Positions 515 to 4,472 of a stretch of DNA of 64,000 bases are shown piece by piece. The DNA comes from Chthoniobacterales bacterium. Its GTDB lineage: Bacteria > Verrucomicrobiota > Verrucomicrobiia > Chthoniobacterales > JAATET01. The stretch lies in assembly GCA_036569045.1 (NCBI GenBank), contig DATCRI010000039.1, positions 1 to 64,000 on the forward strand. The letters run 5' to 3'. The notes under the pieces are model-generated. The model saw nothing but the letters and a program-made list of their open reading frames with translations. It was not told where the DNA came from and made no database searches. Both the position numbers and the translations under genes were made by a program. How positions within the stretch are numbered: the stretch's first letter is position 1; the number at the start of each line of letters is the position of its first letter.

Positions 515-958
515 ATGAAGATCGCCGTCATTGCCGACACCCATGGCCGATTTCCCGAATCGGTTGCCGAGGCCATCGGTTCCGCCGATGAGATCTGGCA
601 TCTCGGCGATTTCTGCAACCTGGCGACGCTGGCCGCGGTGCAGCGCATCGGGCGACCGTTTTACGCGGTGCTCGGCAACAATGATTTCGGCCTCGATCTG
701 CCGGAGTCGCTGCGGCTCGAGCGCGGCGGCTTCTCGTTCCTGCTGATTCACATTCCACCGTCGCCGTCGCGGATCGGAGGCGTCGATTTTCTCATTCACG
801 GCCACACGCATGTCCCGAGGGACGAAAGAATCGGGACGACCCGCGTGCTGAATCCCGGGACGATCGGCAAGCCAAACAAGGGCGCGCCGCCGGCCTACGC
901 GTGGCTCGAGATCGATGAGGCGTCCGGGCGCGTGGACTGGCGCATCGTGCGGATATGA
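515..958 (+). CDS. YfcE/MJ0936-type metallophosphoesterase
   Basis: This 147-residue protein is a compact calcineurin-like phosphodiesterase. All metal-binding motifs are visible: D8-x-H10, G31-D32, the GNND block at 54-57, H79, and the GHTH block at 96-99. Length and motif spacing fit the YfcE/MJ0936 family, soluble enzymes that hydrolyse phosphodiester test substrates and whose natural substrate is usually unknown. It starts with ATG 75 bp from the divergent hisC gene and ends 7 bp from the convergent ion-channel gene. The family call is strong; a specific substrate cannot be given. Confidence 0.85.
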   Translation: MKIAVIADTHGRFPESVAEAIGSADEIWHLGDFCNLATLAAVQRIGRPFYAVLGNNDFGLDLPESLRLERGGFSFLLIHIPPSPSRIGGVDFLIHGHTHVPRDERIGTTRVLNPGTIGKPNKGAPPAYAWLEIDEASGRVDWRIVRI

Positions 959-965
959 AGCGGCG

Positions 966-2045
966 TTACCGGGCCGGCGGCCCGGCCCAGCGATCGACGG
1001 TTTGCTGCCAGTCCGGCCGCTCGACCTGCCCGATCAGCGCGATATTGATCGCGCGCAGTTGCGCGGCGGGGAAGTTCGGCCGGGTCGCGAAAGCGTAGGC
1101 GAGGTGCGTGGTCGGCAGCGGCTGGACGAGCATTTTGCCGGCGTAGTCGTGATTGACGAGGTAACGCAGCGTGAGTTCGCTGTCGGCGAAGGCCGTGATT
1201 TGTTTCGCGTCGAGCGCCTGCAGGCCGGCTTCGACGGTGGGGTATCGGTAATTCGGCACGCCGATGCTCGTGAGAACGTTGCGAGCGAGGGAGCCATCGA
1301 GCACGCCGGTGCGATAGTGGACGAGATCGGATGCCTGGGTAATGCGGCCATCGAGGCGGGCCACCGCGAGGCTCGAGGCCACCGCGCCGGTGAAGACGCT
1401 CACCATCACGACGCCGATGAACATCCAGAAAAACACGACGGCGCGTCCCAGCGCGGACCGCGGGGTCTTGTCGCCATAGCCGACGGTCGTGATCGTCACC
1501 GCGGCGAACCACAGCGCGGCTCCGAATCCCCGCGCGGCGTCGCCGCCGAAATGCGAGTCGTCGACGCGGCGCTCCACGAGCCAGAGCGTCACGCTGAAGA
1601 TGAGCAGCGACGCGAGCAGCACGAGCAGCAGCGTGCCCACACCGTGCGCCATCACGTCCTCGGCAAATTCGATCCAGCGCGGCTCGCGGTCCTTCTTCAG
1701 GAACGCGACCGCGGCCGGGCTCGAGAGGTAGGGCTGGCTGAACTCCAGGCGTCGGGCTCGATCCGCCGAGACGCTCATCTCGCCCACGATCACGTCCAGT
1801 CGGCCCGCCGCGGCGTCGTCCACGATCCGATCGAGCGGCGTCTCGACATATTCAAAAGGCAGGCCCAGCTCGGCGCTGATCCGCTCCCACACTTCCACGG
1901 CCAGTCCCTCCCATTGGCCGTCGGCGGTCTTCGCGGCGAACGGCGGCCGGTCGAAAATGCCGACCCGCAATTTCGCGGGGGTCTGCGCCGACAAAATCGG
2001 CGCGGCCAAAAGCAACCATCCGACCACCGCATAAAGGAACCGCAT
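966..2045 (-). CDS. GluR0-like ligand-gated K+ channel (periplasmic binding domain + pore)
   Basis: The 359-residue protein begins with a signal peptide (about 1-20). A periplasmic solute-binding half-domain (about 24-130) follows, with a first membrane helix at about 134-157. A re-entrant pore loop carries TVGYGD at 187-192, the potassium-channel selectivity filter. A second full membrane helix spans about 201-228, and a second binding half-domain runs to the C-terminus. This split S1-M1-P-M2-S2 order is that of prokaryotic ionotropic glutamate receptors such as GluR0. These open a K+-selective pore when an amino acid binds outside the inner membrane. The ligand is not predictable here; the binding lobes also resemble amino-acid ABC receptors. 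It stands alone and converges with the phosphoesterase gene. Confidence 0.88.
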   Translation of the reverse strand: MRFLYAVVGWLLLAAPILSAQTPAKLRVGIFDRPPFAAKTADGQWEGLAVEVWERISAELGLPFEYVETPLDRIVDDAAAGRLDVIVGEMSVSADRARRLEFSQPYLSSPAAVAFLKKDREPRWIEFAEDVMAHGVGTLLLVLLASLLIFSVTLWLVERRVDDSHFGGDAARGFGAALWFAAVTITTVGYGDKTPRSALGRAVVFFWMFIGVVMVSVFTGAVASSLAVARLDGRITQASDLVHYRTGVLDGSLARNVLTSIGVPNYRYPTVEAGLQALDAKQITAFADSELTLRYLVNHDYAGKMLVQPLPTTHLAYAFATRPNFPAAQLRAINIALIGQVERPDWQQTVDRWAGPPAR

Positions 2046-2126
2046 GGCGTGAGGATTTGCACTTTTCCCCGGGGCTTGTCACTTCTCAGTGCTGCCGCAA
2101 GCTCGTCGCGCGGCGATTCGATACCC

Positions 2127-4472
2127 GTGGAACTTACCGAAAAATTGCTCATCTCGATGGCCGGATGGCCTGTGTTCAAGCAGGCGCAGGCGATTCATGC
2201 CGCCGGCCGGGTCGTCGAGGCGACCTACGAGCCGCCGTTGCTGAAGGGCCGATTGGTCGAGGGCGACAGGCAATTCCTCTGCGGGCTGCAGCTCCGCAAT
2301 TCCATCGATGTGGAGAACCTCTGCCCGTGTCGCGACTCGCGACAGCGCGGCATCATCTGCGCGCATTCCGTCGCCGTCGGCCTGCAGGTGCTCAAGCCCC
2401 GGACAGCCCGCGAGGAAATCCAGAGTTCAAAATCCAAAGCTCCCAATTCCCCGGCGGCCACCGCCGAGACGCCCGTGGTCTCGCTCTCGCTGGAGGGCTC
2501 CCTGCGCCACCTCGAGGCAGATATTAAGTTTTCCTACGCCACGCCTGGCGTGGCGAATCCCGCGGCCGAGGCGGCGATCCTCACCGAGCTGGTCGAGGCG
2601 GGATTCCGCGATTTCAAGGGCCGCGCCGCGCTGCAGGGCGAAGAAAACGTCGTCAAGTTCTTCGCGGCGACGCTGCCCCGGTGGCGCGCGAAGTGGAAGG
2701 TGGACGAGGGCGAGCGGTTCACGCACGTCACCCGTGACCTCGTGCGAATCGAGCCGCAGTTCGCGATTCGCGAGGCCGGCGACGGCTGGCTCGACGTGCA
2801 GATTCATCACACTGCGGGCAAGGATGCCCTGCTCTCGCACGCGGATCTCGCGCGGTTGCTGCAGAGCGGCCAGCCGCACCTGAAGCTCAGGAGCGGGAAG
2901 ATCGCCGTGGCCGATCCCGCCCTAGCGGCCGATCTCGAGGAGGTGCTCCGCGATTGCAATCCCCGGCAGGAACGCGGCGCCTACCGGATCAATCCGCAGT
3001 TTCGCGCCTATCTCGAGTCGAGCATCACGCAATGGCGAGGCGCCGAAGCCGATGGCCGGCCTGCCCTTGCCGCGAAGGATCTCGGCCCGCTCCGCGAAAA
3101 GCTGCGTCCGTATCAGATCGAGGGTGCGCTCTGGTTGCTCGAGCGGGCGCGAGCGGGGCGTGGCGGATTGATCGCCGACGAGATGGGCCTCGGCAAGACC
3201 GTGCAGGCGCTGGCGATGCTCGAGGCGCTCGGCGCGGGGCCTGCTCTGGTCGTATGTCCGTCCTCGCTCGTGTGGAACTGGAAGCGGGAAGCCGCGCACT
3301 TTCTCCCCGGCATCCCCGTGCTGACGATCGACGGGCCCGACCGCGAGAAGCGCTTTGCCGCGATTCCCGATCATCGCCTCGTCATCACGAGCTATGCGCT
3401 GCTGCGGCGCGATATCGAACGTTACCGCGGCCTCGTGTTCTCCGCCGCGCTGCTCGACGAGGCCCAGCACATCAAGAATCCCGACAGCCAGAATGCGAAG
3501 GCCGCGGGCGCCATCCGCGCCGGGTGCCGATTCATCCTCACTGGGACGCCGGTCGAGAATTCCGTGCGCGATCTGTGGTCGCTCTTCGAGTTCCTGCTGC
3601 CGGGCTATCTCGGCGAGCGCGGCGATTTCCGCGACCGTTACGAGACGCCGCTGTTGAATGGCGCCGGCGGCGAGATCTGGTCGAGACTCTCGCGCCGCAT
3701 CGCGCCGTATCTCCTGCGGCGGCGCAAGCAGGACGTCCTCACCGACCTGCCCGACAAGATCGAGCAGGTGCTCGAGGTCGAGCTGACCGATGCCCAGCGC
3801 GCGACCTACGCGAAGCTCCAGGAGGCCGCGCGTTCGCAGGTGGATCAGCTTCGCGACCGTGGTCAGGCCGGGGCGGCTCGCATGCGGGTGCTCACGGCGT
3901 TGCTGCGGCTGCGGCAGGCATGCTGCGACCTGCGATTGCTGGGGGCGAGCGGCGAGGATGTGGTCGTCTCGGCGAAGATCGGCGCGTTGCGCGAGTTGCT
4001 GGGCGAGGCGATCGACGGCGGGCATCGCGTGCTCGTCTTCAGCCAGTTCACGAGCATGCTCGATCTCATCGAGCGGGCGCTCGAGGCCGATGGCATCAGC
4101 TTTTGCCGGCTGGATGGCTCCACGAAGGACCGCCAGGCCGTCGTGGAAAAATTCCAAGGCGATGCGACGATTCCGGTCTTCCTCATCAGTCTCAAGGCCG
4201 GCGGCGTGGGCCTCAATCTCACCGCCGCCGACACGGTGATTCATTTCGATCCGTGGTGGAATCCCGCTGTCGAGGCGCAGGCGACCGATCGCGCCCACCG
4301 CATCGGCCAGAAGAGCGTTGTCACGGCGATCAAGCTGATCGCCCGTGGCACGATCGAGGAGCGCGTGCTGGCGCTCCAGAATCGCAAGCGGGAACTGCTC
4401 AGCGGCACCGTGGACGCCGAGGCGGCGCTCGCCCAGCTCGATGCGGACGATCTTGCGGAATTGGTGGGCTAG
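2127..4472 (+). CDS. SNF2-family helicase with N-terminal SWIM zinc finger
   Basis: A 781-residue protein if read from the GTG at 2127; an ATG at 2157 is the alternative. The open frame extends much further upstream, but that part is antisense to the channel gene and is not protein-like. A SWIM zinc-binding motif (C66-x-C68, C78-x-H80) precedes a poorly conserved middle region. The SNF2 ATPase follows: Walker A DEMGLGKT at 351-358, Walker B DEAQ at 444-447, then GTPVENS, and the C-terminal helicase lobe with VFSQFTSMLDLIE and AHRIGQ. Bacterial members of this Rad54/HepA-like group translocate on duplex DNA; their cellular task is not settled. It is followed 23 bp later by the FKBP gene. Confidence 0.93.
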   Translation: MELTEKLLISMAGWPVFKQAQAIHAAGRVVEATYEPPLLKGRLVEGDRQFLCGLQLRNSIDVENLCPCRDSRQRGIICAHSVAVGLQVLKPRTAREEIQSSKSKAPNSPAATAETPVVSLSLEGSLRHLEADIKFSYATPGVANPAAEAAILTELVEAGFRDFKGRAALQGEENVVKFFAATLPRWRAKWKVDEGERFTHVTRDLVRIEPQFAIREAGDGWLDVQIHHTAGKDALLSHADLARLLQSGQPHLKLRSGKIAVADPALAADLEEVLRDCNPRQERGAYRINPQFRAYLESSITQWRGAEADGRPALAAKDLGPLREKLRPYQIEGALWLLERARAGRGGLIADEMGLGKTVQALAMLEALGAGPALVVCPSSLVWNWKREAAHFLPGIPVLTIDGPDREKRFAAIPDHRLVITSYALLRRDIERYRGLVFSAALLDEAQHIKNPDSQNAKAAGAIRAGCRFILTGTPVENSVRDLWSLFEFLLPGYLGERGDFRDRYETPLLNGAGGEIWSRLSRRIAPYLLRRRKQDVLTDLPDKIEQVLEVELTDAQRATYAKLQEAARSQVDQLRDRGQAGAARMRVLTALLRLRQACCDLRLLGASGEDVVVSAKIGALRELLGEAIDGGHRVLVFSQFTSMLDLIERALEADGISFCRLDGSTKDRQAVVEKFQGDATIPVFLISLKAGGVGLNLTAADTVIHFDPWWNPAVEAQATDRAHRIGQKSVVTAIKLIARGTIEERVLALQNRKRELLSGTVDAEAALAQLDADDLAELVG

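Follow-up and report, generated by a model that had tools for sequence, protein, structure and literature searches.

Among the ancestors discussed for neuronal receptors are the glutamate-gated GluR0 channels of bacteria, and a gene of this architecture raises the question of which ligand its product responds to. Such a gene lies near the start of the window (the whole stretch of DNA that was analyzed, 64,000 nucleotides of contig DATCRI010000039.1 from a Chthoniobacterales bacterium, phylum Verrucomicrobiota). Positions 966-2045 on the minus strand form one complete open reading frame that fits exactly from ATG to stop (Table 1). In the encoded 359-aa protein, Pfam recognizes SBP_bac_3 (1.9e-20, best stretch residues 26-321) and, inside this span, Ion_trans_2 (7.3e-16, residues 142-226) and Lig_chan (1.5e-15, residues 141-243). 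The selectivity filter is of the K+ type, and the pore is predicted to be selective for K+. The gene is confirmed to encode a well-formed channel of GluR0 architecture with a K+ filter, which is a known kind of protein, here with a variant ligand site.

Table 1. Positions in the window of the channel gene, its parts and its divergent neighbor
Feature	Position	Strand	Basis
Whole gene: GluR0-type (S1-TM1-P-TM2-S2) putative ligand-gated K+ channel, 359 aa	966..2045	-	ORF, Pfam, model
Hydrophobic N-terminus (aa 1-20), probable signal peptide	1986..2045	-	sequence; model helix 2-13
S1 half, periplasmic ligand-binding domain (LBD), aa 25-118	1692..1973	-	Pfam SBP_bac_3, model
Arg33	1947..1949	-	clade row comparison
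Glu89, seven residues ahead of Arg96; Pro in GluR0	1779..1781	-	alignment, clade row comparison
Arg96, canonical alpha-carboxylate-binding Arg, retained	1758..1760	-	alignment with GluR0 S1 segment
TM1, aa 136-158	1572..1640	-	AlphaFold2 model
Pore helix and selectivity filter, aa 170-192	1470..1538	-	sequence, model
Filter TVGYGD (within TTVGYGD), T187-V188-G189-Y190-G191-D192	1470..1487	-	sequence
TM2, aa 198-232	1350..1454	-	AlphaFold2 model
S2 half, ligand-binding domain, aa 238-356	978..1334	-	model, profile matches
Ser289, where GluR0 has its amino-group-binding Asp	1179..1181	-	alignment
Divergent neighbor, SNF2-type helicase gene, outside the channel, marks conserved synteny	2127..4472	+	neighborhood comparison, Pfam

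The AlphaFold2 model of this protein was built on a 56-row alignment and reaches a mean pLDDT of 90.7 and a pTM of 0.76. Three helices (136-158, 170-184 and 198-232) lie between two alpha/beta lobes, while the hydrophobic N-terminus is modeled as a low-confidence helix (residues 2-13, pLDDT 56-64). The gate-like stretch SVFTGAVASSLAV of TM2 is paired in the alignment with SSYTASLTSILTI of the plant GLR Glutamate receptor 3.4 (7lzh). The top structural match of the model is the glutamate-bound ligand core of GluR0 (1ii5, Z 27.2, rmsd 2.1, 218 residues, 22% identity), tied within 1 Z with the Nostoc GluR0 2pyy (Z 27.0) and with glutamine-binding proteins in a re-comparison confined to the top 1000 chains of Foldseek. 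In the ranking of Foldseek itself, AMPA-receptor chains come first (E 3e-20, TM-score about 0.5). The family profile matches 2pyy at 2e-47, 1ii5 at 2.8e-37 and, across S1, pore and S2, GluA2 at 1e-37. For the single sequence, Glutamate receptor 3.4 is the top PDB match (6e-16). The first-pass annotation had described a binding protein split by two membrane helices and a TVGYGD loop, which is borne out by Pfam and by the model; the predicted structure contains the pore loop, and its LBD matches glutamate-bound GluR0.

A comparison with known systems shows where the protein departs from its relatives. With GluR0 of Synechocystis sp. PCC 6803 (slr1257; 1ii5, 1iit and 1iiw) it has the S1-TM1-P-TM2-S2 order, the K+ filter, the S1 Arg and the LBD fold in common, but the S2 Asp is replaced by Ser289 and a Pro by Glu at column 89. 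The LBD fold is also that of the ligand core of Nostoc punctiforme GluR0 (2pyy). However, 2pyy is glutamate-bound and contains the canonical 'ITAER' and 'VVFDAP' motifs, which the window protein lacks. The topology and K+-type filter of the Group 1 prokaryotic iGluRs described in PMC2950845 are present as well, whereas their Asp is missing. Animal AMPA and NMDA receptors and Glutamate receptor 3.4 likewise combine an inverted pore with a binding domain that is split by it; in contrast to these, the window protein has no amino-terminal domain and no M4, and a K+ filter replaces their pore loop. The architecture and the link to ionotropic receptors that were proposed in the first-pass annotation hold. 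The name 'glutamate receptor', however, cannot be assumed, because the canonical amino-group Asp is missing, and the gene should for now be labeled a channel of GluR0 architecture instead. The same caution applies to naming other genes of this lineage.

Several observations argue that 966-2045 is a real gene and not a chance reading frame. Orthologues at 58-65% identity are found in all three congeneric genomes searched and further ones (46-50% identity) in three more members of the order. The frame is open in all four congeners, with a dN/dS of 0.23-0.35 among them (NG86). In addition, 6 of 12 related loci (L050-L061) retain the divergent arrangement with the SNF2 helicase gene. The divergent GluR0/SNF2-helicase pair (515-4472 in the window; loci L050-L055) recurs in three genera of the order. 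L068 and L073 have an SNF2 gene upstream of the channel gene on the same strand. A long open frame (915-4472, plus strand) runs antisense to the channel gene and continues into the SNF2 gene; its part upstream of the SNF2 gene is probably a shadow frame of GC-rich DNA.

Among the neighbor genes examined, those of the window and those around four relatives, none points to the ligand. The window neighbors with Pfam matches are a metallophosphoesterase, the SNF2 helicase, an FKBP and a PAS histidine kinase. Beyond those follow a response regulator and a G6PD-like gene, both named by sequence alone. Around the four relatives, the 10 proteins searched include a pyridine-nucleotide oxidoreductase, a glycosyltransferase, an MFS transporter, Tex, an adenylate kinase-like protein, a ketoacyl synthase and a TPP enzyme, and 3 of the 10 have no Pfam match. 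The FKBP between SNF2 and PAS kinase is present in the window and in genome G003 and absent from the examined stretches of G001 and G002.

This kind of protein has been on record since GluR0. In prokaryotes, 22 proteins of iGluR topology were collected by Ger et al. (2010, PMC2950845), of which the 12 with a K+ filter constitute Group 1. Croset et al. (2010, PMC2924276) report 23 prokaryotic iGluRs from a screen of 971 prokaryotic genomes and call the number of species very small. No description of Verrucomicrobiota GluR0s was found in the literature searched, a limited search mainly of titles and abstract openings. In a genome scan with the alignment as query, at least 592 stretches were matched, at least 450 of which encode some relative. 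The best 80 of these relatives were kept, and all 80 match from S1 through S2. Judged by record titles, they belong to Verrucomicrobiota, Pseudomonadota, Bacteroidota, Planctomycetota, Desulfobacterota, Gemmatimonadota and others. At E<=1e-30, 24 of 387 genomes sampled across the phylum contain a match, as do 40 of 213 in the order, the latter count including genomes with a non-K+ relative as sole match (e.g. L022 and L023). The Lig_chan domain was not found in any of 14 well-known control genomes. The earlier description of the architecture as rare is overstated and was set aside, given that the 80 best loci span many phyla; it is accurate insofar as the distribution is patchy (24 of 387 genomes, none of the 14 controls).

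The canonical ligand site of these proteins is defined by two residues: an Arg in S1, which binds the alpha-carboxylate, and an Asp in S2, which binds the alpha-amino group. Both are reported as totally conserved in Groups 1 and 2 (PMC2950845). When the published S1 and S2 segments of GluR0 are placed in the alignment, the Arg falls on column 96 and the Asp on column 289 of the window protein. The carboxylate Arg is present (R96) and Ser93 is also kept, but the amino-group Asp is absent and Ser289 is found instead. In the three congeners, column 289 is Asn, Gly and Gly. A register shift, with D288 in the role of the Asp, was considered and is disfavored: the alignment is gapless from A285 to Y295, and three of the seven proteins that lack the Asp have Thr at column 288.

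The history of the two residues was followed in a maximum-likelihood tree of 96 rows, from which the columns around both hallmark residues had been removed. The rows comprise all best-80 scan loci and 16 of the 37 aligned proteins from the genome and order of the window; 16 of 18 non-K+ relatives were set aside, as were L020, which is partial, and duplicates of named loci. A GYG or GFG filter is present in 93 of the 96 rows, and all seven tree rows of the window's subclade have TVGYGD. The tree contains an 18-row Chthoniobacterales/Spartobacteria clade (support 100/98, the bootstrap being not fully settled). Outside this clade both residues are found in 75 of 76 rows (74 of 75 without L045, which has no GYG filter), the single exception being L074 (Asn). 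Inside it, a single row of the 18 has both; 11 have lost the Arg and kept the Asp, and 6, including the window protein, have lost the Asp and kept the Arg. In an enlarged set of 29 distinct clade proteins (37 rows minus 8 duplicates), 19 lack the Arg, 7 lack the Asp, 3 have both and none lacks both; for the 11 distinct proteins that were added after the tree, clade membership was assigned by similarity and not by a new tree. These replacements suggest that the ligand pocket of the window protein, without one of the two residues that typically grip an amino acid, may take a different chemical as its ligand.

Further changes are found around the pocket. Column 33 is Arg or Lys in 25 of the 29 clade proteins (1/76 rows outside), and column 89 is Glu in 19 of them (0/76 outside, where Ala or Pro occurs in 74/76). 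Column 107 is Leu or Ile in all 29, as opposed to Tyr or Phe in 70/76 and Leu in 1/76 rows outside. Column 288 is Gly, Ala, Asp, Thr or Glu in the clade and Tyr, His or Asn outside. Each of the seven Asp-less proteins carries Ser, Asn or Gly at column 289, followed by Glu at column 290. A helix begins at residue 290 in the AlphaFold2 model, and Ser, Asn and Gly can cap the start of a helix.

The concentration of such changes was assessed on eight pocket columns that correspond to contacts in related amino-acid-binding proteins and were picked with the alignment already in view. Across the seven Asp-less proteins, residues that are rare outside occur at 4/8 pocket columns, compared with 9/97 pore columns (Fisher p 0.008) and 41/222 other LBD columns (Fisher p 0.049). 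As columns 96 and 289 had defined the seven proteins, the test was repeated without them, leaving 3/6 pocket columns (p 0.02 against the pore, p 0.09 against the LBD); with column 289 alone removed, p is 0.13 against the rest of the LBD. From these values the excess over the pore holds for the residues compared. A bias toward the pocket over the remaining LBD is only suggested, the whole LBD being divergent in the Asp-less proteins. Three control subclades have such residues at 0, 0 and 1 of the 8 pocket columns.

Losses of the hallmark residues are also encountered elsewhere. A phylum-wide draw yielded 21 further aligned loci. The GYG filter is present in 20 of them, and among these 20, 8 lack the Arg, the Asp or both. 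L159 carries Tyr at the Arg column and Arg at the Asp column. In L162, L165, L168 and L172 Leu stands for the Arg and Glu for the Asp, whereby the acid is retained. These five K+-filter proteins come from f16, another family of the same class, and represent a separate remodeled pocket. The other three, also with a K+ filter, are L170 (Leu at the Arg column, Asp kept), L175 (Arg kept, His at the Asp column) and L176 (His and Ala at the Arg and Asp columns, respectively). Among the non-K+ relatives in the order, one or both residues are lacking in 5 of 18: L038, L039 and L043 are without both, L040 is without the Arg and L042 without the Asp. The pores of these five are of the 'KSxYKGF' or 'SHSVYKGF' kind in place of the GYG filter. 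That the loss would be unique to the Chthoniobacterales K+-channel clade was rejected on both counts (8/20 and 5/18). The remodeling of the pocket is broader than one clade, as follows from the phylum draw and the non-K+ losses, and part of it may reflect drift or relaxed constraint rather than a new ligand.

How the channel might work can be derived from its best-studied relative. For GluR0, an inverted topology was concluded from PhoA fusions (Zhang et al. 2026, PMC13099474). The same report describes that GluR0 rescues K+-uptake-deficient E. coli, that this uptake requires the soluble domains and their dimerization residues, and that GluR0 takes part in volume control during KCl stress. By analogy, these findings would carry over to the window protein. 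It would form a tetramer in the inner membrane, with the ligand clam-shell in the periplasm and an inverted K+ pore lined by the TVGYGD filter. A small periplasmic solute would bind between S1 and S2 and close the lobes, as in GluR0 and the iGluRs. Following the proposal made for GluR0, this closure would pull on TM1 and TM2 and thereby open the pore. The agonist site appears to have been re-tuned in this lineage, with R96 kept, the ammonium Asp turned into Ser, Asn or Gly and the K+ filter unchanged; R33, E89, L107 and D/T288 are new residues close to the pocket motifs. Since the carboxylate Arg is in place but the Asp that binds the ammonium is missing, the favored reading is a ligand-gated K+ channel whose agonist would be some carboxylate outside the standard free L-amino acids, such as an organic acid or a substituted amino acid. 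We give this reading a probability of roughly 0.48. The odds of a new ligand were lowered, and those of lost ligand control raised, by the repeated pocket test and by the losses in non-K+ relatives.

The protein could instead be an ordinary amino-acid-gated K+ channel of the GluR0 type, with R96 holding the alpha-carboxylate and E89, D32 or E290 holding the ammonium; this is the main rival reading and a serious one, if less likely. E89 is assumed to lie on lobe 1 and D32 in the first loop. Such a site would agree with the retained R96 and Ser93 and with a model fold that is nearest to glutamate-bound GluR0, and the acids are indeed common: E89 is found in 5/7 and Glu290 in 7/7 of the Asp-less proteins, and column 32 is acidic in 27/29 clade rows. 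However, column 89 is Gly or Ala in 2/7 Asp-less proteins, and E89 also occurs in 14 of the 19 Arg-less proteins that keep the Asp. Outside the clade, Glu290 is found in 21/76 and an acid at column 32 in 31/76 rows. As all three acids occur where the Asp is kept, none of them is tied to its loss.

The drift of the hallmark residues in several lineages, with both gone in L159, L176, L038, L039 and L043, speaks for a more drastic change, in which ligand control has been lost and a leak or osmotic K+ channel would retain the LBD as a structural part. The better conservation of pore helix and filter than of S1 and S2 and the volume regulation by GluR0 under KCl stress (PMC13099474) point in the same direction. 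We nevertheless consider this improbable: the substitutions within the clade are restricted (Ser, Asn or Gly at 289), 0/29 proteins have lost both residues, dN/dS among the four congeners is about 0.3, and K+ uptake by GluR0 is reported to require the soluble domains and their dimerization residues (PMC13099474). It is hardly credible that there is no channel at all, i.e. a membrane-anchored binding protein or a decaying gene. In its favor, numerous relatives bear an annotation as ABC-transporter binding proteins (PMC2950845, Table 1), yet TVGYGD is invariant in the seven subclade rows of the tree, the frames of the four congeners are open with dN/dS under 0.35, and no ABC permease is found among the adjacent genes examined.

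Beyond the single protein, the re-tuned carboxylate site may be one outcome of a wider process. The GluR0-type K+ channels of the Chthoniobacterales, and perhaps of other Verrucomicrobiota, might have radiated to non-amino-acid ligands by two opposite routes, although we judge this unlikely. On the first route the Arg would be kept and the Asp dropped, leading to anionic ligands without a free ammonium. On the second the Asp would be kept and the Arg dropped, often with Glu89 added, leading to cationic or amine ligands. If true, the radiation would be a bacterial parallel to the insect IRs, with K+ channels that convert non-amino-acid signals into membrane potential. Insect IRs are described as iGluR relatives with LBDs that lack one or more glutamate-contact residues (PMC2924276). 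They are eukaryotic, and the likeness to the window protein is an evolutionary parallel with no close kinship claimed. The clade offers a natural series for studying how a binding protein coupled to a pore changes its ligand specificity, in which the filter stays intact and two residues are altered by different routes. Neighboring canonical homologues offer built-in controls.

The window's genome itself holds additional members. Within its 3.4 Mb, three proteins pass the Lig_chan cut-off: the window gene, L002 and L003. The latter two (L002:1471-2544, plus strand, contig C11, and L003:1276-2544, minus strand, contig C87) are iGluR-like proteins without a GYG filter, whose pores read 'LLVGGADNKGP' and 'VLGKSSYKGF', respectively. 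Both of these non-K+ paralogues keep the canonical Arg and Asp. In L045:545-1657 (minus strand) both canonical residues are present as well, but an odd pore loop, QIGGAAAGGKVP, occupies the GYG position. Finally, two tandem relatives are found at G099:C5:4682-6856, one of them with an internal TAA stop.
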